A stretch of 64,000 nucleotides of DNA, taken from positions 1 through 64,000 of the forward strand of contig NZ_RHFG01000011.1 in the NCBI RefSeq assembly GCF_004745485.1, given 5' to 3'. Origin of the DNA: Brevibacterium sp. S22. GTDB lineage: Bacteria; Actinomycetota; Actinomycetes; Actinomycetales; Brevibacteriaceae. Every line of letters starts with the position of its first letter. The stretch's first letter is position 1. Both the position numbers and the translations under genes were made by a program. Below, one piece after another: positions 31,943 to 55,952 of the stretch. The notes below the pieces were generated by a model. The model was not told where the DNA came from and did not search any database. It saw only the letters and a list, made by a program, of their open reading frames with translations.

Positions 31943-32820
31943 ATGGCCTCACCACCGCTCTTCTTCACCTGCCGACGGATGCTTTCGACGATCGACTCAT
32001 AGTCAGGATGTCGGAAGTGGAAAGGCTGCGGACCCCATTTGTGATTCCTGTCGATCCGAAGCTCACGACTCTCTCTCACCACTGACGACGTTGTCAGCGA
32101 TCGCGCTTCTCTACGATACGGGATGTAGTCGGTATTCGCGGACAGCGCCCGATCGGCATACTCTTCCGCCTCAGTAGGTTTCACCGTCAGGAGGCTCTGC
32201 CATGCTTCGCCGACTCCCCGACCACTTGAGAGGCCGCGACCAGCCTGTCGCGCCCCGCGTTGGAGGCGTCGCCATTCGCGCCCGAGCTTAGCGAGTCTGT
32301 CATTCTGAGGGTGAGGTGCCCCGTCGACGGCGCCGGCCCATTCGATATCGAGGAAGATGGTCTTCTCCTCTAGCTTGGCCTCGTTGAGACCGTCAATGAG
32401 CTTTGCGAAGCCCGCTCTCCAAAGCGAAAAATGCTCAGCGGTGCCGAATTCGATCAGTCGAGCCCCTTCACGACGTGCCACACGAGCGGCTCCACAGGAC
32501 TCGATTTCAAGTGAGTTCGTCATGGTGGAGCCATCGGGGAACTTCCAGAATCCCCGGCGTTCATCGACCAAGTCGAGTAGGACGACGTCGAGGTCGTCTG
32601 CATTCTTGACGATCCGTTCGAGGCCGGTGCCCTTGAGGTCACTGTTAACCATTCGCTTCTGGAACGCCGAGGTCAGGTCGCTGAGATCGATGCCGGCCGT
32701 CCCGTGCGGAGATTCCAGGCTCGTCACCGAGTGCCTGGCCACGTAGGTCGCTACCTCAGCCTCAGGCATAAACTCCGCCGTATCACGGCTCACGCAGGAA
32801 CCGAAGATTGCGATCTTCAT
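31939..32820 (-). CDS. DUF6270 domain-containing protein
   Basis: A 293-residue protein that opens with KIAIFGSCVSRDTAEF, the hallmark of DUF6270, whose fold resembles SGNH hydrolases (a Ser after GSC would be at residue 8-9). Further conserved-looking spots are VLLDLVDERRGF and DIEWAGAVDGAPHPQND. The biochemical role is not established. Its ATG overlaps the TagH stop and its TGA overlaps the polymerase start. It sits between the exporter and polymerase genes, so a chain modification such as acylation is a reasonable guess. Confidence 0.7.
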   Translation of the reverse strand: MKIAIFGSCVSRDTAEFMPEAEVATYVARHSVTSLESPHGTAGIDLSDLTSAFQKRMVNSDLKGTGLERIVKNADDLDVVLLDLVDERRGFWKFPDGSTMTNSLEIESCGAARVARREGARLIEFGTAEHFSLWRAGFAKLIDGLNEAKLEEKTIFLDIEWAGAVDGAPHPQNDRLAKLGREWRRLQRGARQAGRGLSSGRGVGEAWQSLLTVKPTEAEEYADRALSANTDYIPYRREARSLTTSSVVRESRELRIDRNHKWGPQPFHFRHPDYESIVESIRRQVKKSGGEAM

Positions 32821-34124
32821 CGGCCCGAATCCTGATGGACTGCAGGAGCATCGTCTTCCTGTCGCAAACGCTGCCGCTCCTCATATCGTTCATCGGCGAT
32901 CTTGCGTGCGCGCGAAGCCAGTCGCCGGCCGGTGAAGTCATCAGCAGCGGCAACTGAGGAAGCACGGTCATTCGGATTCGCCGCTCGCAGAACCACCCGC
33001 TTCTTACTAGGGTTGAGCCGCAGCGGCGGGGCATCAGTGATTCGTGGGGCACTCACTACCTGAGAAGCAGGTTTGGGCAGCGACGGGAACTTGGCCTTCG
33101 GGATCTCGGCGTCGAAGGATTTCGGCCAGACCTGCTCTTCGGCGGCGGCCAGCATCGGCGTCGGAGTCTCTTCGACTTCTTCGACCGCGTGCTGTCTCTT
33201 TACATGGCGTGCCGAGTCGGCCTTCTTCTTGGCCGGGCGTGCTGCATGGCGCGGGATGGGATTCTTGATGAGTTCGGGTTCGAGGATATTGATCTCCTCT
33301 TTGACCGCGTTGCTCACCACATCGGCGAGGAGTTTGTCAGCGATATCCTCTTTGCCCTTGGCGACGTTCCACGCCCACCAACGATATTTTTCGGCGACAG
33401 CCTCGGCGGGGCCGTTCATGAGGATCTCTCCTCGGTGCATCCAGACTGCACGGGTGCACAGCTCCTGAATCACTTTGGCGGCGTGGTTGACCAGAAGCAC
33501 CGTACCTGCTTCGGCGAGGAGTTCGTCCATCGCTCGTTCGCTTCGCTCAGCGAACGTAGCGTCACCTGTCGACAGCGCCTCATCAATGAGCAATATCTTC
33601 GGCCGGGCAGCCAGCGCGATGGCAAATCGAAGTCTGGCGCCCATTCCTGAGGAGTAGGTGCCCATCGGCCGGTGGATAGCCGACCCCAGCGCGGAGAGTT
33701 CGACGACATAGTCAAAGGCCTCAGCCGCCTCCTCGGGAGACAAGCCCATCGCCAGACAACCGAGGCGGACGTTCTCACTTCCCGACAGCGCAGGCTGCAG
33801 GGCAGCGCTGACTCCGAGCAGAAGTGGCTGGTAACGGACAAGGATGCGGCCTCGATCCGGTTGTTCGACTCCAGCGACATTGCGCAGGAACGTCGACTTG
33901 CCGGAACCGTTGGCACCGACGATGCCGACCATCTCTCCTTCGCGGGCTACGAAGTTGACTCCACGCAGGGCTCGCACTGTGGTCTGACCTTGCCGCCCGA
34001 CGACTTTGTTCGTCAGTCGCCGAATTCCCGTGGCCTGGTTACTCGGATCGTTGGTGTTGACGGTGTAACGAACCTGAACGTTCTCAGCGATGATGTTCGG
34101 ATCCTGCGGCTCAGAGTCGGCCAT
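32817..34124 (-). CDS. tagH: Teichoic-acid/polysaccharide export ABC ATPase (TagH type)
   Basis: A 435-residue ATPase. It has Walker A GANGSGKST (about residue 70), signature YSSGMGARLRFAIAL (about 157) and Walker B ILLIDEALSTGD. The family-specific LLGVSAALQPALSGSENVRL segment marks the TagH/RfbB/Wzt branch. After the ATPase, about 185 residues rich in Lys, Ala and Pro extend the C-terminus, similar in position to TagH tails but without a recognisable membrane helix. With TagG it would flip a lipid-linked polymer. ATG 34124 has a strong GGAGGAG and overlaps the TagG gene by 14 bases. Confidence 0.85.
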   Translation of the reverse strand: MADSEPQDPNIIAENVQVRYTVNTNDPSNQATGIRRLTNKVVGRQGQTTVRALRGVNFVAREGEMVGIVGANGSGKSTFLRNVAGVEQPDRGRILVRYQPLLLGVSAALQPALSGSENVRLGCLAMGLSPEEAAEAFDYVVELSALGSAIHRPMGTYSSGMGARLRFAIALAARPKILLIDEALSTGDATFAERSERAMDELLAEAGTVLLVNHAAKVIQELCTRAVWMHRGEILMNGPAEAVAEKYRWWAWNVAKGKEDIADKLLADVVSNAVKEEINILEPELIKNPIPRHAARPAKKKADSARHVKRQHAVEEVEETPTPMLAAAEEQVWPKSFDAEIPKAKFPSLPKPASQVVSAPRITDAPPLRLNPSKKRVVLRAANPNDRASSVAAADDFTGRRLASRARKIADERYEERQRLRQEDDAPAVHQDSGR

Positions 34125-34992
34125 AGTTCTCCTCCCCTCTCCAGAAGAAGAGGAATCCGACGATGAGAAGTCCGAAGGCCCAGACCGTACCGACGATCCA
34201 CATCTTCGGATCTGAATCGACTCCGTAGAGCAGCGAGTTGCGCACCAGCGTCAGATAAGCGTGCATCGGGTTGTACTGCATTGCTTCCAAGAGTGCCGGA
34301 TGCTTGTCCAGTCGATCCTCGATGGAGAAGAACACTCCCGAGCCGTAGAGCCAGAATCGGCTGACAATCGACATGAAGTTCGTGAGGTCGGGGATCTTGT
34401 GGCCAAGACGGGCAAGGAAACACGCGAGCCCGACGTTGAAGATCGTCTGCAGGATGACCACGGGGATCACAAGAAGGACTCGCCACGTGATCTCTTCCAG
34501 CGGTGGGGCAATCGCGAGGACGATGACCATGACCAGCAGGGTCGGCATGAAGTCAAGGAAATTGCGGACCACAGTGGAGATCGGAAGTGCGGCACGCGGG
34601 AATTGGAATCCCTTGATCATCGACGCGCCAGAACGGATCGCCCCGGTTCCGCCGGTCATGCACTTGCCTGTGTAGCCGAAGAAGAACACTCCCACGACGA
34701 GGAAGCCGAGGAAGTTGTGGATACCTCGTGAGGTCCCCAGAATGTATCCGAAGATGAACCAGAAGGCGAGCACTGAAAGCAATGGGTTGAGGAACAGCCA
34801 GCCGTAGCCGAGTATGTTCTTCCTCGTCGAGCTCGACATCTTGGCCCGGGATTCGGCGATGATGAAGTGCCGACGGTTCCACAGCGCTGCGAGGTAGCTG
34901 CGCAGACTCGTCCGTCGTCCGACGGGCACGAGTCCCTCACTCGAGACGGACGGGATCGAGCTCAGCCCGAGGGGATTCTTCGTCTCACTCAT
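34111..34992 (-). CDS. tagG: Teichoic-acid/polysaccharide export ABC permease (TagG type)
   Basis: A 293-residue ABC-2 permease with about six helices between residues 60 and 285, including the early KNILGYGWLFLNPLLSVLAF segment that marks the polysaccharide-export permeases. ATG 34992 (after GGGGAG) overlaps the stop of the glycosyltransferase gene; the longer reading from 35055 would overlap that gene by 22 codons and lacks a site. It pairs with TagH to export the finished polymer. Confidence 0.87.
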   Translation of the reverse strand: MSETKNPLGLSSIPSVSSEGLVPVGRRTSLRSYLAALWNRRHFIIAESRAKMSSSTRKNILGYGWLFLNPLLSVLAFWFIFGYILGTSRGIHNFLGFLVVGVFFFGYTGKCMTGGTGAIRSGASMIKGFQFPRAALPISTVVRNFLDFMPTLLVMVIVLAIAPPLEEITWRVLLVIPVVILQTIFNVGLACFLARLGHKIPDLTNFMSIVSRFWLYGSGVFFSIEDRLDKHPALLEAMQYNPMHAYLTLVRNSLLYGVDSDPKMWIVGTVWAFGLLIVGFLFFWRGEENYGRL

Positions 34993-36722
34993 CGCACAAA
35001 ACTCCCCACGAGTTGAGAATAGACCTGCCCATACCGTCGTCCGATTTCCTTCCACCTGCGCGTTGTAAGAACGTGTTCACGTCCATTGTCTCCGAATCTT
35101 GCCCTGGCCGAGCCATTGAAGGCGAGTTCGGACAGCAGTTCCGCGAGTTTCTGCGGGTTCTCTGGCGGCGACCACATGCCTGCACTGTCCGGAACCAGTT
35201 CGCGCAGTGCCGGCAGGTCGGAGATGACAACAGGTCTCGCAAGTCCCATCGCCTCGATCGGTTTGATCGGAGTGACCAGGCGGCAGACCGGTTCGTCCTT
35301 GCGCGGCACGACGATGGCGTCGAGAGCGAGCTGATAGTCGATTGCCTGTGCTTGGGAGACTCGACCGGTGAAGACCGCGTTCTCTCCCAGGCCCGCAGCG
35401 CGTTCCCGCAATTCCGGCAGAGCAACACCGTCACCGGCGATCAACAGCCGGAGGTCCGTTCCTTGGCGGCGGGCGAGGATGACGGCCTCAACGAGATCGT
35501 CGAGGCCCTCGTAACCGACGATGGACGCCGCTGTTCCGACCCAAATGCCGTCTTCGGGCAGGCCGAGACTCTTTCTCACTGCGGCCGGAGTACGGGTGAC
35601 ATCGGCGTCGACGACGGCCTCAGAAACCGAGTTCGGAATGAGGGTGATGGATTCTGCCGGCACTCCTCCGGCGATCAGGTGCTCGCGCATCGTCTCGCCC
35701 AGGGTGATGACAGCGTCAGCCGCCGAGGCGACTTCGATCTCCTTCGACCGCATCATGGCGAATCGTCGGCTCTCCCGACGCGCGGTCCGATCTGCGGGAG
35801 TGCTGCCTGCAGCGGCCCAAGTCTCCTCGAGAACTCCGCGGACCTCATAAACCCACGGCAGTCCGATGGCTCTGGCTGCAGCTCCGGTGGCCAGACCGTT
35901 GACATAGTGCGTAGTGGTGTGAAGGAGGTCGACTTGGCGTTCGAGAGCACTGTCGGCGATCCATGCAGCCTGGTCCTCGAGACGCGAAGTGGGTGTGGCG
36001 GCCGGGCGGAGTGGCACGTCTCGCAGGTATTCGATCCCGTCGACGGATTCGACAGTGTCTTGGCTGAGACGTCCGATCGTCACCGGGTAGGAGGGGCGAG
36101 TAACTGCTGCAACCTGATGCCCGGCGTCCTTGAGAGTGGAGAGGACGAGGTGGCTGCGGTAGGCGTAGCCCGATCGGGTATGGGGCAATGAGTTCGTCAG
36201 CACATGCAGGGACGCAGCAGCACCAGAACCTGATCGGACGGCGGGACGAGCAATGAGGTAAGAGTCGGTGTCGGGCCACCATCCAGGCGACATGGACTTT
36301 CGCTCAGCGGAGAGACGCTGCCTGCGTCTGCCGTCCGGCAGCACGCGGATCGCCTCGTCGATATTGCCTTGGGTCCACAGGATGCGCGAGCGCAGAGGCG
36401 CAGCGTTGTCGAGCGAGCGGGCGATGCGATCCGCGGCGTCGAGCATGCCGAGGTTGAGTGCGATTTCGCCGAGAAGGCGTGAGGGCGCAGGGGAGCCGGC
36501 GACCAGCGACTTCGCAGTCGTCTCTTCTCCCAGCAGCCATGCAGAAGCCGCCCGTCCCGCGACGCCCGGCAGGCAGCCGATTGCGCGCCCCACGAAACGT
36601 GAAGCTGGTCCGGGCAGGCGGCGTGCCAGCTGCATGCCGAAGAACACGCGGTCATCGTTGATATGACCGGCCGTGGTCACGACCACGTTCGTCAGCTGTC
36701 GGGCGAGGAAGCGCAGGTTCAC
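34989..36722 (-). CDS. GT4-family glycosyltransferase
   Basis: A 577-residue GT-B enzyme. Residues 1-180 are an extra N-terminal helical region. Then LHVLTNSLPHTRSGYAYRSH opens the acceptor domain, with YEVRGVLEETWAAAG, and the donor domain has VGYEGLDDLVEA, LLIAGDGVALPELR and the nucleotide-binding E-x7-E region TPIKPIEAMGLARPVVIS. It has a plus-strand paralogue at 47215-49815 with the same SGYAxRSHxVL pattern. ATGA overlaps link it to its neighbours on both sides. Confidence 0.87.
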   Translation of the reverse strand: MNLRFLARQLTNVVVTTAGHINDDRVFFGMQLARRLPGPASRFVGRAIGCLPGVAGRAASAWLLGEETTAKSLVAGSPAPSRLLGEIALNLGMLDAADRIARSLDNAAPLRSRILWTQGNIDEAIRVLPDGRRRQRLSAERKSMSPGWWPDTDSYLIARPAVRSGSGAAASLHVLTNSLPHTRSGYAYRSHLVLSTLKDAGHQVAAVTRPSYPVTIGRLSQDTVESVDGIEYLRDVPLRPAATPTSRLEDQAAWIADSALERQVDLLHTTTHYVNGLATGAAARAIGLPWVYEVRGVLEETWAAAGSTPADRTARRESRRFAMMRSKEIEVASAADAVITLGETMREHLIAGGVPAESITLIPNSVSEAVVDADVTRTPAAVRKSLGLPEDGIWVGTAASIVGYEGLDDLVEAVILARRQGTDLRLLIAGDGVALPELRERAAGLGENAVFTGRVSQAQAIDYQLALDAIVVPRKDEPVCRLVTPIKPIEAMGLARPVVISDLPALRELVPDSAGMWSPPENPQKLAELLSELAFNGSARARFGDNGREHVLTTRRWKEIGRRYGQVYSQLVGSFVR

Positions 36723-41102: not shown

Positions 41103-41289
41103 CTATTGGCCCTAACAGGTTTCATACAGAACGAACGCCGCGAACACTAAGAATTGGTTGCATTCAACACGTCCTGCAGCCAGGTTCCATTCCGTTCGTA
41201 CTGGTGCCCCACAAGGCCACTTGGCCAAGCGTTTCGGCTGTTCGCACCGCTGCTTTCCACCGTCTGCCCCCTTCGAGAGGACTCGATCC

Positions 41290-43182
41290 GTGCCACGAAC
41301 ACCACTTCGCACTTTGAGGACCGCTGTGTGGCATCTGCGCAACGGCGGGGTCAGACAAGTCGCGAAGTGGCGGCGTCGCCGCTCGGTGGTCCAAGGTGCT
41401 GCAGAAGCATCCGCCGAAGTCGCCACCGGGAGCCTCTCGGCGGAGGTCCTTGCGGAGCTGTTCCCACCCCTGCCGTTGCCGCACCGCACGCCGGTATTCG
41501 ACCAGCTCTTGGTCGGAGTCGTCCTCGACGAGTTCTCGACTGAGAGCTTCGGCTATGAGTGGCCGATCAGACGACTGTCGCCGTCGAGCTGGGCGACCGA
41601 ACTCGACGGGCTCGACTTCGTCTTCGTCGAATCGGCCTGGAGTGGAAACGACGGGCAGTGGAAGTTCAAGCTCACCAGTCCGTCCGGCCCCGGCTCAGAG
41701 ATCACCGAGCTGCTCAGTGAGTGCCGTCGCCGAGGCATTCCGACTGTCTTCTGGAACAAGGAGGATCCACCGCACTTCGAAGATTTTCTGCCGCTGGCGC
41801 GGATGTTCGACGTCGTCTTCACCAGCGATGTCAGGCTGATCCCCGAGTATCGATCCAGGCTGGGACATGACAGAGTCGCTGCCCTGCCGTTTGCCGCACA
41901 GCCCGCGATCCACAATCCTTCACAACCTGCACGGAATGCCGCGGCCAGGGACATCGCCTTTGCCGGCATGTACTTCGCCCACAAATACCCAGAGCGCAGA
42001 GAACAGATGGACCTGCTGCTCGGAGCGGCTGACGCCGTATCGCCGAGGATGCAGTACGGCTTGGAGATCTTCTCCCGTTTCCTCGGCAATGATGAGCGTT
42101 ATCAGTTCCCCGGCAGCTTGGCCGGGCGAGTGGTCGGGTCGCTGCCCTATCGGAACCTGCTCACGGCGTACAAGCACTTCAAGGTCTTCCTCAACGTCAA
42201 CTCCGTCACCGACTCCCCCAGCATGTGCGCCCGCAGGATCTTCGAGATCAGCGCCGCGGGCACTCCCGTCGTCACCACTGCCAGCGCGGCGACCCGCGAG
42301 TTCTTCCCCACGTCCGAGGTCCCTCAGCCCGAGACTCAGGAGGAAGCGGAATGGACTCTGCGCGCTTATGTCCGCAGCCCTGAGCTGAGAGACCGCACCG
42401 TTCACCTTGCCCAACGACGCATCTGGGCCGAACACACGTACACGCATCGGGCCATGACGGTGATGGATACGCTCGGTCTGGACTATGCGCGCCCGTTCCC
42501 GACGTCGGTGTCAGCGGTCGTCTCCACGAATCGGCCGGACCACCTCGGCGAGGTTCTGCGGACCCATGCCGAACAGCTGCACACGGATAGGGAACTCGTG
42601 TTGGTGACCCACGGGTTCGCGGCACCTGCCGATCTGCGAGCACGCGCCGCAGAAGCAGGGATCGACCATCTGCAGATCGTCGAGGTCGACGCTGCGCAGC
42701 CGTTGGGAGTCTGCCTCAATCGCGGAGTTCAGGCGGCTTCCGGCGAAGTCATCGCGAAGATGGACGACGATGATGTGTACGGAGCGCACTATCTGGGCGA
42801 CCAACTTGCAGCCCTGCGCTATTCGAATGCCGATCTCGTCGGCAAGCAGGCACACTACCTGCACATTCGGGGCCGCGACATCGTCATCTGCCGCTTCCCC
42901 GAACGCGAGCATCGGTTCACCGATCTCGTCATGGGACCGACTCTGATGACCCATCGGTCAACACTTCTGGACAACCCGTTTGCGGAGCGCACCCTCGGCG
43001 AAGACACGGAGCTCCAGCAGAGACTCGTCGGCTCCGGAGCCCGGATCTACTCGGCAGACAGGTTCAACTTCGTCCAGGTCCGCGGCGACCATGCCCACAC
43101 GTGGAGCGTCGACGACAGTCACCTGCTGGCCAACGGAGACGTCCACGCATTCGGATACGCTCCGGACCACTACTGCTTCTGA
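41290..43182 (+). CDS. Glycosyltransferase, CgeB-like GT-B domain fused to GT2-like domain
   Basis: A 630-residue protein. Residues about 70-390 have the DUF3880/Glyco_trans_1_2 pattern of CgeB proteins: GVVLDEFSTESFGYEW, WNKEDPPHFEDF, VFTSDVRLIPEYR and FAGMYFAHKYPERR. Residues about 405-630 resemble a GT2 catalytic domain with SAVVSTNRPDHL and KMDDDDVYGAHYL. The acceptor and donor are unknown. GTG 41290 follows GAGAGGA at the right distance, whereas the longer frame from 41158 lacks one. It heads the second plus-strand operon and is a paralogue of the gene at 43736. Confidence 0.8.
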   Translation: MPRTPLRTLRTAVWHLRNGGVRQVAKWRRRRSVVQGAAEASAEVATGSLSAEVLAELFPPLPLPHRTPVFDQLLVGVVLDEFSTESFGYEWPIRRLSPSSWATELDGLDFVFVESAWSGNDGQWKFKLTSPSGPGSEITELLSECRRRGIPTVFWNKEDPPHFEDFLPLARMFDVVFTSDVRLIPEYRSRLGHDRVAALPFAAQPAIHNPSQPARNAAARDIAFAGMYFAHKYPERREQMDLLLGAADAVSPRMQYGLEIFSRFLGNDERYQFPGSLAGRVVGSLPYRNLLTAYKHFKVFLNVNSVTDSPSMCARRIFEISAAGTPVVTTASAATREFFPTSEVPQPETQEEAEWTLRAYVRSPELRDRTVHLAQRRIWAEHTYTHRAMTVMDTLGLDYARPFPTSVSAVVSTNRPDHLGEVLRTHAEQLHTDRELVLVTHGFAAPADLRARAAEAGIDHLQIVEVDAAQPLGVCLNRGVQAASGEVIAKMDDDDVYGAHYLGDQLAALRYSNADLVGKQAHYLHIRGRDIVICRFPEREHRFTDLVMGPTLMTHRSTLLDNPFAERTLGEDTELQQRLVGSGARIYSADRFNFVQVRGDHAHTWSVDDSHLLANGDVHAFGYAPDHYCF

Positions 43183-43400
43183 GGATCCGCTCTTCAACGC
43201 TCGCTCGAAAGCCCCCATGACCCGCACCAACCGGCCCGCGGAATTCTTCGTATGCCCCAGGTGAACTGTTGGTGAAATGGGCGGTTTCGGTCTGCTCCGG
43301 TCAGTAGCGTGGCGGTCATGCTGTGAAGATTTCGCAGTGGAACGCCATGCCTTCCGGTGGCCAGAAGTTCCATTGCGGACGTTGGACAACTGGAGCCCAT
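43183..43400 (+). other. 218-bp leader between the two CgeB-like genes
   Basis: The first junction in this operon that is not tight. The next junctions overlap or are short. An internal promoter may sit here but I found no clear -35/-10 pair. Nothing coding was recognised. Confidence 0.3.
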
Positions 43401-43739
43401 TTGAAGACCACCACGACCGGAACCGAGGACCTCGGAGCCGTCCGCGAGAACATCTCTCGTGTCATTGATGAGACTTCGTCCCTCAATGCCGAACTCGCCA
43501 AGGAACTCATCAGCGCCTACGACCGCGAGTCGAAGCTGCTCGGCGGAATCAACAAGCGCGAGAACGAAATTGCGCGGCTGAAGAACGAAGTCGCGAAGCG
43601 GGATGCGAAACTCGCCTCGGTCAACGAACGCCTCGAACGGCTGCTGGGCTCCAAGGCCATGCAGGTCCAGCGCGCGTACTGGCGCCTGCGCCGTCCTCAG
43701 GGCGGGACCCCCCGGCAGACGAAGGGCGGTCAGCGATGA
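43401..43739 (+). CDS. Small coiled-coil protein coupled to a glycosyltransferase
   Basis: About 112 residues from TTG 43401, chosen because GGAG stands 5 bases upstream; a GTG at 43323 would add 26 residues. Almost the whole length is predicted coiled coil by heptad pattern (ELISAYDRESKLLGGINKRE, then ARLKNEVAKRDAKLASVNER), followed by a basic end with a short YWRLRRP motif. Such coiled coils occur as parts of larger glycosyltransferases. It overlaps the next gene by 4 bases, so it may be a partner or a split-off segment of that enzyme. Confidence 0.7.
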   Translation: MKTTTTGTEDLGAVRENISRVIDETSSLNAELAKELISAYDRESKLLGGINKRENEIARLKNEVAKRDAKLASVNERLERLLGSKAMQVQRAYWRLRRPQGGTPRQTKGGQR

Positions 43740-46369
43740 AGGAAGCCGATATCAAGAAGCGGCAGGCCTCTCTTGACGCCCGCATCAAAGAACTGAAAGC
43801 AACCCGCACTCGCCAGAAGTCGCTCGGTGTGCACACGCAGTCGGACTACTTCATCGACGGTCTGCTCGGACGGCACCCCTACATCGATCTGGCCGAGTCG
43901 CGTGAGGAATACCTCGATCGCCACCGCTCCTTCGCCGCTCCCGTCGAAGCCAAGATCTCAGCCCTCGTCGAAAAGGCTCAGCAGCTGCCCACGACTTCGG
44001 GGCAGCATTGGGATCCTCGACGGAAGCTGCGCATCGGAATAATCGCCGACCGGTTCCTCTTCGACTCGCTCAAGGACGCGGCTCATGTGGTGCCGATCAG
44101 TCCCGTAACCTATGAGCAGGACATGGCGGACATCGACCTGCTGCTCATCACCTCAGCCTGGCGCGGCCTCGCTGACGAATGGTTCAATGTCGCCCTGTCC
44201 GGTTCCCCGGCACGTCAGATCCTCGAGTCGCAGGTCGTTCCCTTCGCCCGTGCGAACGAGATCCCGATCGCCTTCTATTCGAAGGAGGATCCACCGAACT
44301 ACGAACAGTTCGCCCCCCTGGCGAAATTCGCCGACCACGTGTTCACCAGCGCCGTCGAATGCGTTCCCCGATACCGCGAGTACCTCCACAATCGAGTGCC
44401 GGTGACTGTGCTGCCTTTCGCAGTGAACTTCGTCCACCACCATCCGCTCGGAAGCATGCGCCACTCCGGCCGCGAGTTCGTCTTCGCCGGATCCTGGTTC
44501 GAGCACAAGTACCCGGAGAGGAAGTCATCCGCCCAGCGGATCTTCGACGGTCTGCTGTCGGCCGGAGCCGATCTCACGATCGTCGACCGCAACCTCGAGC
44601 TCGACACGGAGAAGTTCGCGAAGGCTGAACGCTATCTCTTCCCTGAGCGGTACCTGCCGCATCTGCACGGGCCGATCGATCACGAGACCCTGCTCGACCT
44701 GCAGCGTCTCCTTCCTGTGGGCATCAACCTCAACTCCGTCGTGAACTCCCAGTCGATGTATGCCAACCGGATCATCGAACTGCAGGCCATGGGCACGTTC
44801 ATCGTCTCGAACTACAACGCGGGAGTGAACTCCCTCTATCCGCAGGTGTGTATGCCCGACTCCGCTCTCGACATGGAGCAGACGTACCGTGCACTGACAC
44901 AGCGAAGCATCCGGCAGGCACAGGTGGCTGGAATCCGCGCCGCTTTCACCGCCAACACCGCATTCGACCGCATCGACACGATCGCCGAGGAGATGGGGCT
45001 GGATTCCGGTTCCCCCGATCACACGGTCTACGTCACCGGACTGGCCGAATCGGACTTCGAAGTCTTCCGCCGGACACAGTCTTATGCGGGTCCGATGGCA
45101 GCTCTTCCAAACGGCTCAGACCGTGTCGCCGGAGCCGACGGCGACGTCGTCATCGATCTGACCGGGCATTCCGATTTCGGTCCTCACCTCGTGCAGGACG
45201 CGGTGAATGCATTCCGCTTCACCGACGTCGACGAGGTCCGGATTCTGCCTATCGATACGACCGAGTCTCTCTACGAATTCGTCGATCCGGTCGACTCCGA
45301 CCAGCACATCACCGCCACGTGGCGCCCGGCCGGAAGCCGCCTCAGTGACGGTGTCGGGCCTGAGCGAACAACGCTGACGATCGCCTCGGACCTCGTCCTC
45401 GAGCGGGTCGAGACGATCGACTTCGCGGCCGAGCCCGAGATCAGTGTGGTCGTTCCCGTGTACAACAACGGTCCGCACCTGAAGTTCAAGTGCTTCGAAT
45501 CCCTCCGCCGGTCGTCGATCTTCGATCGCTGCGAAATCCTCCTCGTCGACGATGGGTCCACCGACATCGAAACGCCTGCGATCCTCGACGAACTTGACCG
45601 TGCCTACCCGAACGTTCGAGTCCACCGGTTCCCGGCCGGTGGTTCGGGCAGCGCCTCACGTCCACGCAACAAGGGGCTCGAACTCACCCGCACCCCGTAC
45701 GTGACCTACCTTGATCCGGACAACGAGCAGACGAACGACGGTTATGCGCTGCTGCTCGAGATGGTCGAAGAGCACGGATACGACTTCGCCATCGGCAATA
45801 TGATGCGGTTCAAGCACAACCGGATCATGATCAAGAACGCGGGCATCCTGCGACCGGTCGTCGGCGACGACGGCGTGCTCGAAGACAATGCGCTCTCTCG
45901 AGTGAAGTTCCAGCCGATGAGCATCCAGGCGCTCGTGGCAGACACGCAGTGGCTGAAGAGCCTCGGCATCTATCAGCCGATCGGCGCCGTGGGACAGGAT
46001 TCCTACTTCTTCCAGCAGATGCTCTTCCACGCCCGCCGGATCGGGCTGACGTCGACACCGATCCACACCTACTATGCGGCGGTGACGAACTCGACGGTCA
46101 ATGCCATCGGCCCGCGCTTCTACGAGAAGTACCTGCCCCTGGAAGAGGACAGGTCTGCGTGGCTGCGCGAGGTCGGTCTGCTCGAGGACTACAACGCCAA
46201 ACGGCTCGAACCCTTCGTCAAAGGATGGTTCGTCCAGAAGCTCGCGTTCGCCGCCGAAGAGGATATCGATGAGTGCAAGAGCCTCATCCGTCGACTCACG
46301 CGGTTCTACGGCAAGACGTCGTGGAAGGACGCCGAGCTCGCCGAACTCCATGCCGTCACACATGTCTGA
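43736..46369 (+). CDS. Glycosyltransferase, CgeB-like GT-B domain fused to GT2 domain
   Basis: An 877-residue protein with a short N-terminal coiled coil (about 1-30). Residues about 100-400 are CgeB-like: IGIIADRFLFDSL, YSKEDPPNYEQF, FTSAVECVPRYR, FAGSWFEHKYPERK. Residues about 565-790 are a GT2 domain with ISVVVPVYNNGPHLKFKCFE, LLVDDGSTDIE and TYLDPDNEQTNDG. The rest is a C-terminal extension. It is the second of two related fusions in the operon; both keep the KEDPP and HKYPER motifs. Sugar specificity is unknown. Confidence 0.82.
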   Translation: MKEADIKKRQASLDARIKELKATRTRQKSLGVHTQSDYFIDGLLGRHPYIDLAESREEYLDRHRSFAAPVEAKISALVEKAQQLPTTSGQHWDPRRKLRIGIIADRFLFDSLKDAAHVVPISPVTYEQDMADIDLLLITSAWRGLADEWFNVALSGSPARQILESQVVPFARANEIPIAFYSKEDPPNYEQFAPLAKFADHVFTSAVECVPRYREYLHNRVPVTVLPFAVNFVHHHPLGSMRHSGREFVFAGSWFEHKYPERKSSAQRIFDGLLSAGADLTIVDRNLELDTEKFAKAERYLFPERYLPHLHGPIDHETLLDLQRLLPVGINLNSVVNSQSMYANRIIELQAMGTFIVSNYNAGVNSLYPQVCMPDSALDMEQTYRALTQRSIRQAQVAGIRAAFTANTAFDRIDTIAEEMGLDSGSPDHTVYVTGLAESDFEVFRRTQSYAGPMAALPNGSDRVAGADGDVVIDLTGHSDFGPHLVQDAVNAFRFTDVDEVRILPIDTTESLYEFVDPVDSDQHITATWRPAGSRLSDGVGPERTTLTIASDLVLERVETIDFAAEPEISVVVPVYNNGPHLKFKCFESLRRSSIFDRCEILLVDDGSTDIETPAILDELDRAYPNVRVHRFPAGGSGSASRPRNKGLELTRTPYVTYLDPDNEQTNDGYALLLEMVEEHGYDFAIGNMMRFKHNRIMIKNAGILRPVVGDDGVLEDNALSRVKFQPMSIQALVADTQWLKSLGIYQPIGAVGQDSYFFQQMLFHARRIGLTSTPIHTYYAAVTNSTVNAIGPRFYEKYLPLEEDRSAWLREVGLLEDYNAKRLEPFVKGWFVQKLAFAAEEDIDECKSLIRRLTRFYGKTSWKDAELAELHAVTHV

Positions 46370-47222
46370 TGCCGCACTCAGCGAAGAGCCCCCATTCGAG
46401 CGACTGGGCACATTGCTGCCCGGAGACCGCATCGAGCGACGCCCCGGTCTCTTCCAACGCTTCGATTTCCACGCCGGAACGGTGACGGTTCCCGCGCTCC
46501 TGTGGTCACGGGTCGAGCCGACCGGCCGTCTCGTCATCGCCTTCAACGGAGCAGTCCGGAGGACACCGGGGAAGGATCCGCAGGAGATCTTCCAACGGCG
46601 GACCTGGGTCGACGACTTCGACGCCGATGTCCTCTTCATCTCCGATCCGACGCTGCGCACGGACAATCAGATCAGCATCGGGTGGGGGCAAGGTGCTCCC
46701 GGCCGCTTTGCGCTGCCCGCGATGGCCCAGACGGCCCGTTTCGTCGCGGAGTGTCTCGAGGTTCCGTCGGCTGCTCGCCTGTATTTCGGGACCAGCGCGG
46801 GAGGCTTCCAGGCTCTCCAAGCAGCCGCCCGCGACGAGGGCAGCCGTGCCTTGGTGAACAACCCGCAGATCGACTGGACGAAGTACATCCCGGTGTACGT
46901 CACAACGATCGCCCGCCAGATCTATGAGGGTGCGACTCCAGAAGAGACGGCGGAGAACTTCCCGGACAGGACGTCGACCGCTCACGCCTTCGCCGAGTTC
47001 GGGCATATCCCCCGAACTCGCTGCCTGCTCAATGCCGCCAGCGAGAACGATGCCCTCGCGCAGCTGCCCGCGCTTGTCGACGCTCTGCCCGCTCAGTCCG
47101 GTGAACGATCCTGTTTTGATGTATCGCTGTATTCCGACGTCCGCGGCGGTCACAATCCACTGTCCAAAGCCGCCACCGCCGCGGCCGTCAACGCTATCGT
47201 CAGCGAGGCCGCGGATGAGTGA
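46362..47222 (+). CDS. Alpha/beta-hydrolase-like protein of the glycopolymer locus (paralogue A)
   Basis: A 286-residue protein from ATG 46362 (an in-frame ATG at 46350 would add four residues). It carries a nucleophile-elbow motif LYFGTSAGGFQAL near residue 145, VNNPQIDW after it, and a late GGHNPLS which could provide the histidine. It shares LFISDPTL, IGWGQG and FGxSxGGF with the protein at 51245-52033, so the two are paralogues. No signal peptide is seen. It overlaps the upstream gene by 8 bases and the downstream one by 8. A chain-modifying esterase or acyltransferase is possible but unproven. Confidence 0.7.
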   Translation: MSDAALSEEPPFERLGTLLPGDRIERRPGLFQRFDFHAGTVTVPALLWSRVEPTGRLVIAFNGAVRRTPGKDPQEIFQRRTWVDDFDADVLFISDPTLRTDNQISIGWGQGAPGRFALPAMAQTARFVAECLEVPSAARLYFGTSAGGFQALQAAARDEGSRALVNNPQIDWTKYIPVYVTTIARQIYEGATPEETAENFPDRTSTAHAFAEFGHIPRTRCLLNAASENDALAQLPALVDALPAQSGERSCFDVSLYSDVRGGHNPLSKAATAAAVNAIVSEAADE

Positions 47223-49815
47223 ACGGATCGAAGTCGACACCCGTGAACCAGCACCTGAACCTGTGTTGGAGTCCGTTCCTGCCGTCGAATCCTTGAGTGA
47301 GAGCAGCCGAACCGACCGCGTCCCCGCTGAGAATCCGATTGTCGACGGCATCGCAGCTGCCGCTCGACTGCTGTCCGAGCATTCCGATGACCTGGAGACG
47401 GCCGCGCGGAAGATCAGCTCAGTACTCAACGGTCTGACGTCTTCGGCAACGGTCTGCCGGATTCTCTTCCACACTGCGGTGGCCGAAGGTTCATCGCTGC
47501 GATCGCGGTTCGTCGCTGACCTGTTGGCCAGCAACGGCCGTGCCCAGCTGGCACGTCTGCTGGCTGATCAGGCGATCGCAACTGGGGCGAAGCCATGGCA
47601 GAGGAGACGGCTGGAGTCCCTCATGCAGGATGCTCCGAACAGCGACTTCGGTGAGGGCGCCCGCCGATCCTTCGACCTGACCATCTCAGCTGACGGAACG
47701 ACCACGCTCGAGTCAACAGGGTCGGATGCGGAGCCGGCGGCTGAGCACGAGCTGCGTTCCGTCACCCGCTCTCTCGGTGCGGATACAGACTGGCTCGCCG
47801 AACTTGTCTGCGCCCTCGATGACACCCCCGTCGGCATTCAGCACGATGTCGTCTGCATCCGCATTGCCTCGACTGAGTTCGCACGCCAAGCGCTGACACC
47901 GGTGCTTGAGACCCTCGCGATCCTGCCCGTCGTACCGATCCTCGTCGCCGAGTCTGTCGCGGCAGCACTGTCGACCTCTGACTCGGTGGGTCGGCCCCTC
48001 CTCGACCGAGCTCGAGCCGTTCTGCTCACACCGAACCGATCAGGACAGCAGACGATCATCTCGATCCGCGGCTCCGAACTGCTCGACGCCGGACCGAGCT
48101 CGGACCTCGTCCTACCGACGGATGTCGATATCCAAGCGCTGGGAGCCGCCCTCGGGCTGACGACCATCGTCGAGTCACCTGTGCTGGCCAAACACGTACG
48201 CACGGTCGTCGACTCTCTTCGGATCGAATCATCCCGACTGCTGCCCCTGTCCTCTGCGACCAGAGCGTTCGCCCGGCTGCTACGGTTCCGGGGAACGCGA
48301 CGGCAGAACGCTCCGGTTCGCAATATTCTGACCGGACACCTTCTGGCCGCCGGCTTCTTTGCTGAGGCCATGGCTCTCGTCGATACCGTGCCGCCCTCCG
48401 ACCGCGGGAAGGTCTACCGCGCGCGACGCATCCGTGCTCTCTTCGGAACGGGACGCTTCGACGAGGTCGCCGACACTGCCGATTCCGCGACCGCATCCGC
48501 CGCGGACCGACCTCTCATCAGCGAGTCGGCAGCCGCCTCGGCGATGCTGCGCGAGCTAGAATCCGTGTCCGAGAACACCTCGGTGCCGTTCGAGCCCGTG
48601 CCCGGGAGGATCCTCACCATCCTCCACGCGAGCGCACCGGACCAGAGCGGCGGCTACGCGGTTCGCGCACACAGCGTCCTCAAGACCATCGCCGCAGGCG
48701 GCTTCGAGGTCATCGCTCTCACCCGCCCGGGCTTTCCCGAGGCAGCGAACTCGTTGGAACCGGGGGCCACCGCCGAGGTGGTTCACGACGGGATCCGCTA
48801 CCTTCGCCTGGGCAGCGATTCCGCCCGCGCCGATGGTGAGTTCGCGTACATGTGTGAGGCCATCGACCATTTCGCCGAGGTGATCCGCGGGGAACGACCG
48901 TCGGCCGTCCATCTGCGTTCGACCTATGTTTCGGCTCTGCCGGGGCTCATCGCAGCCAAACGCTTCGGCCTGCCCGTCGTCTACGAGGTCTCGGGCATGT
49001 GGGAACTCGTCTACGAGGCCGCGAACACCGCCCGGATGGAGGGCCGTCGTGCACGCACCGTGGTGCTGGAGAACGCAGTGTTGGAGCATTGCGACGAAGT
49101 CCTCACCATCACCGAGGCGATGCGCGACATCATCAGCGACAGAGTGCACACTCGACGCCCGATCGGCATCATGCCCAATGCCGTCGATACGGCCGAGTTC
49201 GCGTCTGCAGAGAAGAACCCGCAGGTGATCTCGCGATTCGATTGGAGCGCCCACGACCCGATCATCGGATACATCGGCACGTTCGTCGGCTACGAGGGTC
49301 TCGACATCCTCGTTCGCGCCATCGCTCTCGTCCGCAGCCGCGGAGTCCTGGTGCGCGCACTGCTCGTCGGAGACGGCGCAGAGTCGTCCCGGATCCGGTC
49401 GCTGGCAGCCGATCTCGGCCTCGACGAATCGACCATCGTCTTCACCGGGCGCGTCTCCCATGACGAGGTCGCCGAGCTCTATTCGGTCATCGATGTCTGC
49501 GCCTATCCGCGCCTGCTCACCCCGGCGACCCGCGCGGTCTCACCGCTCAAACCTTTCGAGGCGATGGCAGCGAAGAAGTCCGTCATCGTCTCCGACGTCC
49601 CGGCCCTGGCGGAGATCGCCGGATACGGCGAGCGCGGTCTCGTTGTGCCCAGCGGTGACGTCGAGGCTCTCGCCGAGGCGATCAGCGCAGCCATCGAGGA
49701 TCCTTCCGCGACGCTGTCACGGGTGGAGGCCGCGGCCGCATGGACGGAATCGGAGCGCAGTTGGTCGGCGGTCGGTGCGGTCATGGGATCGGCGCTCGCT
49801 AGGCTGACGTCATGA
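47215..49815 (+). CDS. GT4-family glycosyltransferase with long N-terminal region
   Basis: An 866-residue protein; ATG 47215 overlaps the hydrolase-like stop by 8 bases. Residues 1-460 are an unassigned, mostly helical region. The acceptor part opens with ILTILHASAPDQSGGYAVRA (about 463), then YEVSGMWELVYEAAN. The donor part has GTFVGYEGLDILVRAIAL, LLVGDGAESSRIR, VFTGRVSHDEV and KPFEAMAAKKSVIVSD. It is related to the enzyme at 34989-36722 in the other operon. The donor sugar cannot be told. Confidence 0.83.
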   Translation: MSERIEVDTREPAPEPVLESVPAVESLSESSRTDRVPAENPIVDGIAAAARLLSEHSDDLETAARKISSVLNGLTSSATVCRILFHTAVAEGSSLRSRFVADLLASNGRAQLARLLADQAIATGAKPWQRRRLESLMQDAPNSDFGEGARRSFDLTISADGTTTLESTGSDAEPAAEHELRSVTRSLGADTDWLAELVCALDDTPVGIQHDVVCIRIASTEFARQALTPVLETLAILPVVPILVAESVAAALSTSDSVGRPLLDRARAVLLTPNRSGQQTIISIRGSELLDAGPSSDLVLPTDVDIQALGAALGLTTIVESPVLAKHVRTVVDSLRIESSRLLPLSSATRAFARLLRFRGTRRQNAPVRNILTGHLLAAGFFAEAMALVDTVPPSDRGKVYRARRIRALFGTGRFDEVADTADSATASAADRPLISESAAASAMLRELESVSENTSVPFEPVPGRILTILHASAPDQSGGYAVRAHSVLKTIAAGGFEVIALTRPGFPEAANSLEPGATAEVVHDGIRYLRLGSDSARADGEFAYMCEAIDHFAEVIRGERPSAVHLRSTYVSALPGLIAAKRFGLPVVYEVSGMWELVYEAANTARMEGRRARTVVLENAVLEHCDEVLTITEAMRDIISDRVHTRRPIGIMPNAVDTAEFASAEKNPQVISRFDWSAHDPIIGYIGTFVGYEGLDILVRAIALVRSRGVLVRALLVGDGAESSRIRSLAADLGLDESTIVFTGRVSHDEVAELYSVIDVCAYPRLLTPATRAVSPLKPFEAMAAKKSVIVSDVPALAEIAGYGERGLVVPSGDVEALAEAISAAIEDPSATLSRVEAAAAWTESERSWSAVGAVMGSALARLTS

Positions 49816-51221
49816 CACGGACGATGCTGTTCTACGGGCATGTCGCCTCGAACTGGGGCGACCTAGCCATCAATGCCGGTGCCCTCGAACTGATGCGCCG
49901 GGCCGAGGTCGACATCGAAGGCTCGACGGCTGTTCTCCTCGCTCCTTCGGACCAGTTCCGCAGGCAGGCGGGCTTCACCCTCAAGGGCATGAAGCAGCTG
50001 ATCGTTCCCTCTGACGGCCGTGCACGCGGTGGCCGTGACGAGGTCGAACTGCTCATCGACTATGTCGCTCATCCGCACCGGTTCGCCGAAGATGTCGGTA
50101 TGGCCGATGTCGACCTCGTCGTCCTCAACGCCGGCGAGCATCTCTTCGAGTCGGCGACCGGAGAGAACCTCATCGACCTCGTGTGGAGGATCCTCCCCGC
50201 ACTGGCCGCGCAGTCGCTGAAGAAACCAGTCCTCCTGCTGCCGTCGACCGTCGGCCCGTTCCGCACATCGTTCGGGACCGCGCTCGAGGAGTTCCTCCAC
50301 CAGGGCGTCGACGCAGCAGCTTACCGTGATCTCGAGTCCCGGAGACTCGAGTCGCCCGACCTCGGTCAGGAGCTTCCGGTTCTCCTGGATCCCGGCTTCT
50401 TCGTGCCGGGACTTCGGGCTCAAGAGGAAGAGAACCGCGACGAGGATGCCCTTGGCATCGTCTTGCGGCCCGAGGACATGGGGATCCGACCAGGGTCACG
50501 CCGTTCGGCATTCGTGCAGAACAAACTCCGAGACTCGCAGTTCCGCAGCTCTCAGGCGTTCCAACTCTTCACCTCGGTGGCCGAAGCCCATCTGGCCGAT
50601 GGAGGAAAGGTGAAGGTCATCGTCCAGACCCGAGCCGACCGGGGAATCTCCACGGCGGTCGCCGATCATCTCACCGAGGTCGCCGGTTCGGACTGGGTCG
50701 AACTCATCGATCCGACTGGGTTCCGGTCGTTCGTCGACGAGCTCGGCCGCCTTGGTGCTTTGGTGACGTCACGCTTCCATTCGGTCATCCTCGCCTCGTC
50801 TCAGGCGGTGCCGACCGTGGGCGTGTATTCGGAGACGCACGGACACAAGATGCCCGGGCTGTTCGAGCTGCTCAAATTTCCCGACTGCGCCGTGCGTCTG
50901 GATGACCGCAGCATCTCGGCAGTGCGCGACGAAGTCGACGCGGCGCTGTCCACGGTCCGCGGCTCCATCGACGAGATCCACAATCGGATCCGGGCGAACA
51001 GAACCCTGGTCCGTCGCTGGTTCGCCGAGGCGATCGCCTCGCAGGAGACGACGATATTCGACACGTCTGCACTGAGGATCGAGGCGTTGGCGCTGCTCTA
51101 TCGGGCAGGGCTCGAACGCGCGCAGAAGGAATCACTGTCCCAAGTGCTGCAGGCAGTTCACGAACTGCGTGACGCCGACAGCCGCTCAGATGACAATGCA
51201 CCCGGCGCAGAGTCGCGCTGA
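49812..51221 (+). CDS. Polysaccharide pyruvyl transferase family protein (second copy)
   Basis: A 469-residue protein, longer than the copy at 20468. Family features are NWGDLAINAGALELM at the start, VVLNAGEHLFE, LLLPSTVGPF, LPVLLDPGFFV in the middle and SRFHSVILASSQAVPTVGVY near residue 320. The last 100 residues are an added helical tail. It should put a pyruvate acetal on a sugar or polyol. The ATGA overlap with the GT4 gene before it supports joint use of the two enzymes. Confidence 0.83.
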   Translation: MTRTMLFYGHVASNWGDLAINAGALELMRRAEVDIEGSTAVLLAPSDQFRRQAGFTLKGMKQLIVPSDGRARGGRDEVELLIDYVAHPHRFAEDVGMADVDLVVLNAGEHLFESATGENLIDLVWRILPALAAQSLKKPVLLLPSTVGPFRTSFGTALEEFLHQGVDAAAYRDLESRRLESPDLGQELPVLLDPGFFVPGLRAQEEENRDEDALGIVLRPEDMGIRPGSRRSAFVQNKLRDSQFRSSQAFQLFTSVAEAHLADGGKVKVIVQTRADRGISTAVADHLTEVAGSDWVELIDPTGFRSFVDELGRLGALVTSRFHSVILASSQAVPTVGVYSETHGHKMPGLFELLKFPDCAVRLDDRSISAVRDEVDAALSTVRGSIDEIHNRIRANRTLVRRWFAEAIASQETTIFDTSALRIEALALLYRAGLERAQKESLSQVLQAVHELRDADSRSDDNAPGAESR

Positions 51222-51244
51222 GAACGACCCGAGGAGCTGAAGAG

Positions 51245-52033
51245 ATGATCGAACGCACCATCCCCGAGGAGGGGCACCACCACGCCGAATCGGTGGCGGC
51301 GTTCACCGGGCCCCAGCCGGGCGCCTCGACGACGTACACGATCATGCTCGATGACGTCCCCATCGATCTGCGTTACGACGATCGCGGATTCGACACCACC
51401 GTCGTCTTCTTCCATGCCGCGATCACGAAGGCGGTGCGTCGATACCCGGTGTTCTCCGGGGCCACGTTCTCCGAAGACGTCGCTGCGAATCGTCTGTTCA
51501 TCAGCGACCCTTCTCTCTACGTCGATTCCCGAATCAAGCTCGGCTGGTACGCCGGCAGCAGTCGGCAGCCGAAGCTGCAGGACGCATTGACTGAGATCAT
51601 CTCCAGATTCGACAGTCCGGATCGTCGGCTCGTCTTCTTCGGTGCTTCCGGTGGAGGATTCGCCTCTCTCTATTACTCCACGCACTTTCCCGGGTCGATC
51701 GCTGTTCCGGTCAACCCGCAGACGACGATCCGCAACTATGTGCCGGTCATCGTCAACCGGTACCTCAACTATGCGTGGGACGGACTGCCCGTCGACGAGC
51801 TGCCGGTGTGCACCGATGTCATCAAGCTCTACCGTCGTCCCGTGTCCAATTCGGTTCTCTATGTGCAGAACTCCGGCGACAGCGATCATTTGGAGCACCA
51901 CTATGCGCCGTTCTTCGATGCGCTGCCGGACGATCACCAGGTGGAGTCCCACCTCGTCGATGCCGGTGAAGGCCATGTTCCGCCGAAGCGTGCCCTGTTG
52001 GGCACGATCCTCAAGGACGTCGTCGGCAGCTGA
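51245..52033 (+). CDS. Alpha/beta-hydrolase-like protein of the glycopolymer locus (paralogue B)
   Basis: A 262-residue protein starting at ATG 51245 after GAGGAG. It has LVFFGASGGGFASLYYSTHF around residue 130, PVNPQTTIRNYVPVIVNRY after it, and DAGEGHVPPK near the end with a likely catalytic His. The shared FISDPSL, LGWYAGS and FGASGGGF motifs tie it to the protein at 46362-47222. It is last in the plus-strand operon and converges on the rhamnosyltransferase gene with 6 bases between stops. Function unproven. Confidence 0.7.
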   Translation: MIERTIPEEGHHHAESVAAFTGPQPGASTTYTIMLDDVPIDLRYDDRGFDTTVVFFHAAITKAVRRYPVFSGATFSEDVAANRLFISDPSLYVDSRIKLGWYAGSSRQPKLQDALTEIISRFDSPDRRLVFFGASGGGFASLYYSTHFPGSIAVPVNPQTTIRNYVPVIVNRYLNYAWDGLPVDELPVCTDVIKLYRRPVSNSVLYVQNSGDSDHLEHHYAPFFDALPDDHQVESHLVDAGEGHVPPKRALLGTILKDVVGS

Positions 52034-54390: not shown

Positions 54391-54692
54391 GCACGAACTC
54401 CTGGTCGGGAGAACCACGGGGGCCGCCTCGGCGAGGCAGGGTTCTCGCATCAAATACCGATGAAGATAATGGTATGAAGTTCTGCTGAACTTGGACATAC
54501 CGTCTCCATTCATCTCATCATGACGAACCCACCTTCGCTGACCGAATCAGAAGACCTTCACAGCGCATTCACTCAAAGTTGATGATGAAGTCACGTCAGC
54601 GGTCATTTCGTGAGTCATTGTGGTCAGGTTGCCTCGAGAAGCTCTCGGGTAACATCAGTAGTCGTTCATCTCGAGTTTGGAGCATCGCACAC
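54391..54692. promoter_or_regulatory. Divergent promoter region between wecB and wecC
   Basis: A 302-bp region between divergent starts. It holds the small palindrome CGAGAAGCTCTCG (54635-54647) and, overlapping it, a loose pair TTGCCT and TAACAT with a 15-bp spacer, which is too short for confidence. Shared control of the two genes is likely from layout. Confidence 0.35.
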
Positions 54693-55952
54693 ATGCCGCC
54701 CACCGCCACCTCTCAACGCCCTTCCGTCGCTGTCGTCGGCCTCGGTTATATCGGTCTTCCGACCGCAGCTGTTCTGGCCAGTTCGGGCGCAGAGGTCGTC
54801 GGTGTCGACATCAACGCCGATGCCGTGGCCACGATCAACGCCGGCAAAGTTCCCTTTGTGGAGCCGGATATGGCGACAACGGTGGCCGGTGTCGTCTCTC
54901 AGGGCTACCTGCGAGCCACGACCGAGACTCCGCACGCGGACAATTACATCGTCGCCGTGCCGACGCCGTTCAAGGACGGGCACGAACCGGACCTGTCTTA
55001 CATCGAGACTGCGGGTAAGCAGATTGCACCCCTGCTCGAGGGCAATGAGCTCATCATTCTCGAATCGACTTCGCCTCCCGGAGCAACGGAGTTCCTGGCC
55101 GAGACGATCATCAAGGAACGCCCGGATCTCACGCTCAAACCCGGCAGCGCACAGACCGTCTACTTCGCGCACTGCCCTGAGCGCGTGCTGCCCGGCCGGA
55201 TCATGATCGAGCTGCGGACCAACGATCGCATCGTCGGCACCCTCAACGGCAATGCCGGCGAACGTGCCCGCGATCTCTATGAGCTGTTCTGCGAGGGCGA
55301 GTTCCTCATGACCGATGCTCGTACCGCGGAGATGGCGAAGCTGACCGAGAACGCCTACCGCGACGTGAATATCGCCTTCGCGAACGAACTGTCGGTGATC
55401 TCCGACGGGCTCGACATCAACGTGTGGGAGCTCATCAAGCTCGCCAACCACCACCCTCGCGTCAACATCCTGCAGCCTGGCCCCGGAGTGGGCGGCCACT
55501 GCATCGCCGTCGACCCGTGGTTCATCGTCTCCACCGCGCCCGAGCAGTCTTCACTGATCCGCACAGCGCGTGAGGTCAACGATTCGAAGCCAGGCTACGT
55601 GCTCGACAAGCTCCTCCCTCAGGCACGTCGGATCCAGGATGTGCAGATCGCGGCACTTGGTCTGGCGTTCAAGCCGAACATCGACGACCTGCGCGAGAGC
55701 CCGGCCCGGCAGATCGTTGGACAGCTCGCCGATGCGCTCCCCAACGCGAACATCATGGCGGTCGAGCCGAACATCGACAACCTGCCTTCGGAACTCGAAG
55801 AGTGCGAGAACGTCACGCTCACTGAGGTGAACGAAGCCATTCGCGCTGCCGATATCGTGCTGCTGCTCGTTGACCACAACGAATTCACCCGCATCGACCG
55901 GACCCTGCTCACGCAGAAGATCGTCCACGATACGCGGGGCGTCTGGGGCTGA
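54693..55952 (+). CDS. wecC: UDP-N-acetyl-D-mannosamine dehydrogenase
   Basis: A 419-residue protein from ATG 54693 (TGGAG upstream), giving the Rossmann motif VAVVGLGYIGLPTAAVLA. The middle region has PERVLPGR and AELAKLTENAYRDVNIAFAN-type sequence. The active-site Cys lies in GPGVGGHCIAVDPWF, which fits the UDP-ManNAc 6-dehydrogenase branch. It makes UDP-ManNAcA with two NAD+. It faces wecB. A strong bidirectional hairpin follows. Confidence 0.92.
   Translation: MPPTATSQRPSVAVVGLGYIGLPTAAVLASSGAEVVGVDINADAVATINAGKVPFVEPDMATTVAGVVSQGYLRATTETPHADNYIVAVPTPFKDGHEPDLSYIETAGKQIAPLLEGNELIILESTSPPGATEFLAETIIKERPDLTLKPGSAQTVYFAHCPERVLPGRIMIELRTNDRIVGTLNGNAGERARDLYELFCEGEFLMTDARTAEMAKLTENAYRDVNIAFANELSVISDGLDINVWELIKLANHHPRVNILQPGPGVGGHCIAVDPWFIVSTAPEQSSLIRTAREVNDSKPGYVLDKLLPQARRIQDVQIAALGLAFKPNIDDLRESPARQIVGQLADALPNANIMAVEPNIDNLPSELEECENVTLTEVNEAIRAADIVLLLVDHNEFTRIDRTLLTQKIVHDTRGVWG

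Follow-up and report, generated by a model that had tools for sequence, protein, structure and literature searches.

Two putative O-acyltransferases of the alpha/beta-hydrolase fold, and their wider family, at a probable cell-wall polymer locus of Brevibacterium

The DNA studied here (the window) is a stretch of 64,000 nucleotides from Brevibacterium sp. S22, positions 1 to 64,000 of contig NZ_RHFG01000011.1. Our subject is a pair of its genes, P1 and P2, each encoding a stand-alone alpha/beta-hydrolase domain. These genes, and those around them that matter to the argument, are as follows.

27252..28286, minus strand: P3, an XcbB/CpsF family protein; P1 and P2 are its distant relatives
31939..32820, minus strand: DUF6270 protein with the motifs GSCVSRDT ... 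WGPQPFHF; its family is fused to P2 relatives
32817..34124, minus strand: ABC exporter ATPase of the polymer locus
34111..35055, minus strand: ABC-2 type exporter membrane protein
41158..43182, plus strand: two-part glycosyltransferase (Glyco_trans_1_2 + GT2), a conserved neighbour; start uncertain
43323..43739, plus strand: small coiled-coil-like protein of the P1/P2 operon
43736..46369, plus strand: two-part glycosyltransferase (Glyco_trans_1_2-like + GT2), immediately 5' of P1
46362..47222, plus strand: P1, stand-alone alpha/beta-hydrolase domain, 286 aa
47215..49815, plus strand: GT4 glycosyltransferase with a long helical/TPR-like N-terminal region; start inferred, giving an 8-bp overlap with P1
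49812..51221, plus strand: polysaccharide pyruvyl transferase (PS_pyruv_trans, PF04230)
51245..52033, plus strand: P2, stand-alone alpha/beta-hydrolase domain, 262 aa
52040..53215, minus strand: putative rhamnosyltransferase-like protein (PF11316), convergent with P2
53227..54513, minus strand: WecB, UDP-GlcNAc 2-epimerase (TIGR00236)
54579..55952, plus strand: WecC, UDP-ManNAc dehydrogenase (NF008286)

The genes for a protein with two glycosyltransferase domains, P1, the GT4 enzyme, the pyruvyl transferase and P2 run in one direction, with overlaps of 8, 8 and 4 bp followed by a 23-bp gap (taking 47215 as the most likely GT4 start). A first-pass annotation of this DNA had proposed that P1 and P2 are paralogs enclosing the GT4 and pyruvyl transferase genes. 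Indeed, both reading frames are intact at these coordinates, and the enclosed genes form a near-overlapping operon with them. The locus further encodes a Glycos_transf_4 (TagO-type) protein, a CapD-type epimerase, several GT4 proteins and three proteins of the CDP-glycerol glycerophosphotransferase type. Judged by these gene families, it reads as a wall teichoic- or teichuronic-acid-type polymer locus with ABC export. The wall teichoic acids of Brevibacterium iodinum are pyruvylated, and the same source, in its section on Promicromonospora, describes a galactan that carries pyruvate and O-acetyl, both on Gal (PMC6801904).

P1 and P2 are 32% identical over 136 aa (BLASTP, E 6e-18). They have in common, in the same order, the motifs FISDP, GW, FGxSxGGF and NPQ, as had been noticed at first pass, and these motifs extend to the whole family. 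Homologs were gathered from genomes of the same genus, order, class and phylum, from plasmids and from IMG/VR contigs. A profile of the family scores both proteins far beyond chance (about 1e-69 for P1 and 1e-99 for P2), values that are flattering because the profile was built from members of the same set. A recent tandem duplication was considered as the origin of the pair and is ruled out by the tree, in which the two fall into separate clades with support of 99 each. Members of both clades are present in further species of Brevibacterium and in a single genome from a different family, and the order glycosyltransferase, P1, GT4, pyruvyl transferase, P2 is kept there as well.

A third protein of the window, P3, had been thought similar to P1 and P2. 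Its GASKGG elbow and its kinship at the profile level (2.4e-14; hhalign probability 92%, E 6e-7) bear this out, but it is a distant relative that belongs to a named family, being a full-length XcbB/CpsF protein (NF033892, E 1.6e-87, 293.5 bits, above the curated cut-off of 125 bits). A BLASTP comparison of P3 with P2 gives a weak match (3e-4), and one with P1 nothing useful. Like the P1/P2 family, XcbB/CpsF proteins are found in polymer loci; they differ in having a D...GAFYLDT element in place of DP...GWY.G, DPI in place of NPQ, and much conserved sequence of their own. The DPI means that the Gln of the NPQ motif, discussed below, is not shared by P3. Membership of P1 and P2 in XcbB/CpsF is likewise ruled out, since P2 reaches 15 bits and P1 none against the cut-off of 125, and XcbB lacks the Gln. 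Four PDB entries represent the XcbB/CpsF family (9hvz, 9hwh, 9hwi and 9i87). The P3 profile matches a solved XcbB/CpsF protein at 1e-65, and one molecule in these entries is named “bacterial protein _ ACoA”, which may denote an acyl-CoA complex; a literature search on these structures found no paper. AlphaFold2 (AF2) modeled P3 poorly (pLDDT 67), and the Foldseek matches of that model are uninformative. In another Brevibacterium genome, one XcbB/CpsF gene (L115, G019:C7:131644-132511) is broken into pieces, with an in-frame TAG and split frames; the same organism also has an intact copy.

The P1/P2 domain has no covering model in Pfam or NCBIfam. Among the Pfam alpha/beta-hydrolase families, no match rises above the gathering cut-off, the best being Peptidase_S9 at 12.4 and 11.4 bits; the Asp2 model TIGR03712 gives P2 only 10.8 bits, and P1 none, against a curated cut-off of 210.75. 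Single-sequence searches of the PDB returned nothing usable for P1 and weak matches only for P2. When the family profile is run against every sequence in the PDB, the top match is Asp2 (7.3e-6), followed by CsaC (4.9e-4), while Gap2, which is related to Asp2, stands at 0.04; a smaller, earlier profile gave 7.9e-6, 0.002 and 0.015 for Asp2, CsaC and Gap2, respectively. At the level of sequence, the match to Asp2 and CsaC is thus significant yet remote. Both are experimentally studied glycan O-acetyltransferases (PMC7501274; PMC5578698). CsaC (also SacC; PDB 6yuo, 6yuq, 6yus and 6yuv) acetylates the capsule of Neisseria meningitidis serogroup A (PMC7501274), and Asp2/Gap2 (PDB 6lnw and 6oyc) is the GlcNAc O-acetyltransferase of the accessory Sec system (PMC5578698). 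Asp2, the profile's best sequence match, shares with the family an sDPrL ... YlGt element and the elbow region; it differs in being larger (511 aa), in serving a protein-export system and in having the elbow GLSMG, and its alignment to the family stops before the Gln position.

The predicted structure of P2 points in the same direction. Its AF2 model is of high confidence (pLDDT 95.1, pTM 0.92) and places Ser135, Asp212 (after the strand 203-209) and His244 (after the strand 233-238) where the canonical alpha/beta-hydrolase triad lies. In a Foldseek search with this model, CsaC structures appear at ranks 4, 6, 10 and 13, with TM-scores of 0.61-0.62 normalized to the query and 0.64-0.67 normalized to the target. 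The latter are the highest target-normalized values among the 50 best matches, although in E-value order general hydrolases rank beside CsaC. The identity to CsaC in the structural match is about 15%.

Beyond the fold, the Ser-His-Asp triad and a setting in a polymer locus, P2 resembles CsaC in a more particular feature. CsaC has five residues, the triad plus what its authors call the “Gln extension”, whose mutation costs most or all of the activity: S114A and H228A abolish transfer, D198A reduces it by 99.5% and Q138A by 96.8%, and replacement of H201 loses more than 70% (PMC7501274). A HMMER alignment over CsaC residues 88 to 231 matches S114, Q138, D198, H201 and H228 with Ser135, Gln159, Asp212, His215 and His244 of P2; the correspondence is one of sequence alignment, with residues numbered by counting along the chain coordinates as printed. 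In both proteins the extra Gln lies 24 residues after the Ser, in a P-Q pair, a DxxH follows strand 7 and a GH follows strand 8. The P2 active site is predicted to comprise the triad Ser135-Asp212-His244 together with Gln159 and His215. The family also has an invariant DP...W element of its own, which is not aligned in CsaC.

These residues are widely retained. In P2 numbering, all 42 aligned homologs have D88, W101, S135, G137 and H244, and almost all have P158, Q159 and N209. Among 58 non-redundant members, the Ser is present in 55/56, the Gln in 52/57, the Asp in 42/55, His215 in 39/55 and His244 in 53/53. Loss of the catalytic Ser and His in most homologs, which would have spoken against a hydrolase-type enzyme, is hence the opposite of what is seen, and the CsaC-type Gln shows roughly the same degree of conservation as the nucleophile. 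It is also kept at all 18 of the IMG/VR loci, which were collected with a pattern that covered the elbow and did not include the Gln position. The few members without Gln include several with an altered elbow (the second domain of L060, L080 and L126); degenerate copies of the domain are found as the second domain of L060 and L075, and in L079 and L080.

The Gln is present in both P1 and P2, and P1 also keeps the GTSAGG elbow, NPQ and GGH, that is, Ser, Gln and His244. Unlike CsaC, P2 and most other members, the P1 subfamily lacks the Asp and His equivalent to D198 and H201. Its segment NAASENDALAQ, aligned with QNSGDSDHLEHH of P2, has Ser, Asp and Gln in the columns of Asp212, His215 and His219, a combination that is found throughout the P1 clade and in one distant relative (L023). 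This rearrangement appears to be a new variant of a known catalytic design. Without the Asp/His pair, the argument for O-acyltransferase activity is weaker for P1 than for P2.

The domain is patchily distributed, being present in 13 of 39 relatives and, within the order, in 32 of 297 genomes, as expected for variable surface-polymer loci. The members found here are mostly from Actinomycetes; those on plasmids are annotated as hypothetical, and a search of phage records gave no match to P2 or P3. Throughout the order, the surroundings of the domain repeatedly include genes for WecB, WecC, the ABC exporter and DUF6270. Many relatives carry the domain within a larger protein, the fusion partners being a D-glucuronyl C5-epimerase (L030, L073), heparinase II/III-like proteins (L031 twice, one of them weak; L065; L070), DUF6270 (L029, L069, L070, L071 and L074, with a degenerate domain copy in L079 and L080) and a hexapeptide acetyltransferase (L072); in L075 the domain is duplicated. 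On two Rhodobacterales plasmids, a GSCFA-domain protein adjoins a P1/P2-type domain. The fusions to these four kinds of partner tie the domain to the modification of polysaccharides.

Several of the fused proteins deserve description. The P2-type domain accompanies the C-terminal domain of the C5-epimerase in L030 (16496-18769) and L073 (5307-7547), which come from Brevibacterium and another genus; a combined epimerizing and acylating enzyme is possible. The heparinase II/III-like proteins, of 960-1520 aa, have the P2-type domain at the C-terminus:

L031, 3332-6601: heparinase II/III-like fusion
L031, 11927-14818: heparinase II/III-like fusion
L065, 5595-10160: heparinase II/III-like fusion
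L070, 4173-7457: heparinase II/III-like fusion

P2 itself is fused, in some species, to a region resembling the N-terminal part of the GT4 protein; two such proteins (L027, 11321-13270; L028, 11559-13526) stand in a block from which the GT4 domain itself is absent. DUF6270 proteins (31939-32820 in the window; L079, L080, L074 and L069) have GSCVSRDT close to the N-terminal end and WG..PFH close to the C-terminal end, and are often fused to a P2-type domain or lie beside one. From these motifs, DUF6270 looks like an SGNH/GSCFA-type hydrolase; a literature search on it found no paper.

We propose that P1 and P2 are probably cytoplasmic O-acyltransferases of the alpha/beta-hydrolase fold that decorate the cell-wall glycopolymer of this locus before its export by the ABC transporter. 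Neither protein has a hydrophobic segment (the 19-residue maximum is below 1.0), and the locus encodes an ABC exporter, making modification inside the cell plausible. The pyruvylated wall polymers of Brevibacterium, and the pairing of pyruvate with O-acetyl on a single residue in Promicromonospora (PMC6801904), also speak for the proposal. The earlier idea of intracellular serine-hydrolase-fold enzymes tied to polymer acylation thus gains from the predicted fold, the triad, the absence of hydrophobic segments and the match to CsaC and Asp2. By analogy with CsaC, the elbow Ser135 would receive an acyl group, acetyl or other, from CoA, giving an acyl-enzyme; Gln159, with His215 to hold it and Asp212 as backing, would position Ser135 and help to activate it. 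His244 would then activate a hydroxyl of the polymer, on a sugar or a polyol, to accept the acyl group, and the acylated polymer would be exported by the ABC transporter. To the homology, the predicted fold, the conservation of the five residues and the locus context, which we observe, this scheme adds a CoA donor, an acetyl group, transfer in place of hydrolysis, and an acceptor and its position, all of which we infer. A precedent for the chemistry exists in homoserine transacetylase-type enzymes, which transfer acetyl from acetyl-CoA to a hydroxyl on the same fold; they differ in lacking the Gln/His extension and in using small-molecule acceptors (PMC7501274).

The identity of the acyl group bears on this scheme. 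It would most likely be acetyl, the group that both characterized relatives, CsaC and Asp2, transfer. The presence in one operon of divergent subfamilies (S..D...Q versus D..H...H) would suit two donors or two acceptors, and there is a modest chance that the enzymes transfer another acyl group (succinyl, lactyl, aminoacyl or fatty acyl) or draw on a donor that is not CoA. If the donor were still an acyl-CoA, this would be a sub-case of O-acyl transfer. Against the proposal, its triad is shared with esterases. Carbohydrate esterases have the same fold and triad, esterases are among the top Foldseek matches, and the weak Pfam matches are to generic hydrolases; P1 and P2 could accordingly be esterases of the cytoplasm that take O-acyl groups off the polymer or its sugar precursors, or edit them there. 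We regard this as unlikely, because the top sequence matches are O-acetyltransferases, because the extra Gln of CsaC is kept about as strongly as the nucleophile, and because de-esterification in the cytoplasm before export has no obvious role. The argument from the Gln does rest on a single characterized enzyme, CsaC (PMC7501274).

Asp2 raises another consideration. It is bifunctional, and its role in transport is independent of the triad (PMC5578698); together with the degenerate copies of the domain in relatives (the second domain of L060 and L075; L079 and L080), this might suggest a mainly structural or assembly role, with catalysis secondary. The near-invariance of Ser, His and Gln in intact members makes such a role improbable. 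Still less probable, to the point of being hard to credit, is an action in chain termination or release, which the first-pass annotation had listed beside acylation. The setting among glycosyltransferases and teichoic-acid-type polymerases would accommodate it, but we found no relative with such an activity, and the family is also fused to modification enzymes and occurs outside polymerase operons. The fold, the triad and the match to CsaC and Asp2 favor O-acyl transfer instead.

The hydrolase-fold proteins had also been called undescribed. This holds for P1 and P2, for which neither Pfam nor NCBIfam has a model, and not for P3, a member of a family with solved structures, nor for the class of mechanism, which is already known from CsaC (PMC7501274) and Asp2 (PMC5578698). 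What appears to be new is the P1/P2 family itself, its breadth, its fusions and the P1 variant. The authors of CsaC had noticed uncharacterized proteins that share the extra Gln, and asked whether its addition is a general route by which such esterases become transferases (PMC7501274). Tentatively, and as a possibility that we rate below even, we suggest that the Gln-extended triad is the hallmark of a large superfamily of enzymes that O-acylate polymers, represented in Actinomycetes, in Alphaproteobacteria and on contigs classed as viral, and used as a module in C5-epimerase, heparinase-like, DUF6270 and hexapeptide acetyltransferase enzymes, with the Ser/Asp/Gln of the P1 subfamily (for Asp/His/His) as a new version of the catalytic site. 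If true, this would answer the CsaC authors' question. The family makes that question testable in dozens of diverse, small, soluble cases; natural variants without the Gln or with a shifted acid are available, and the fusions hint at what the substrates may be. Many proteins of cell-wall and capsule loci for which there is no family model would also gain a suggested function.

Two minor observations complete the description. Eighteen P2 relatives (L129-L146) lie on IMG/VR contigs classed as viral; many lie close to the end of their contig and could be flanking host DNA, while some (L141 and L143) are internal. In the window, two small minus-strand genes (56051-57184), with the polymer locus on one side and an acyl-CoA synthetase-like gene on the other, look from their sequence alone like those of a PIN-domain protein and a DNA-binding partner, a toxin-antitoxin-like pair.
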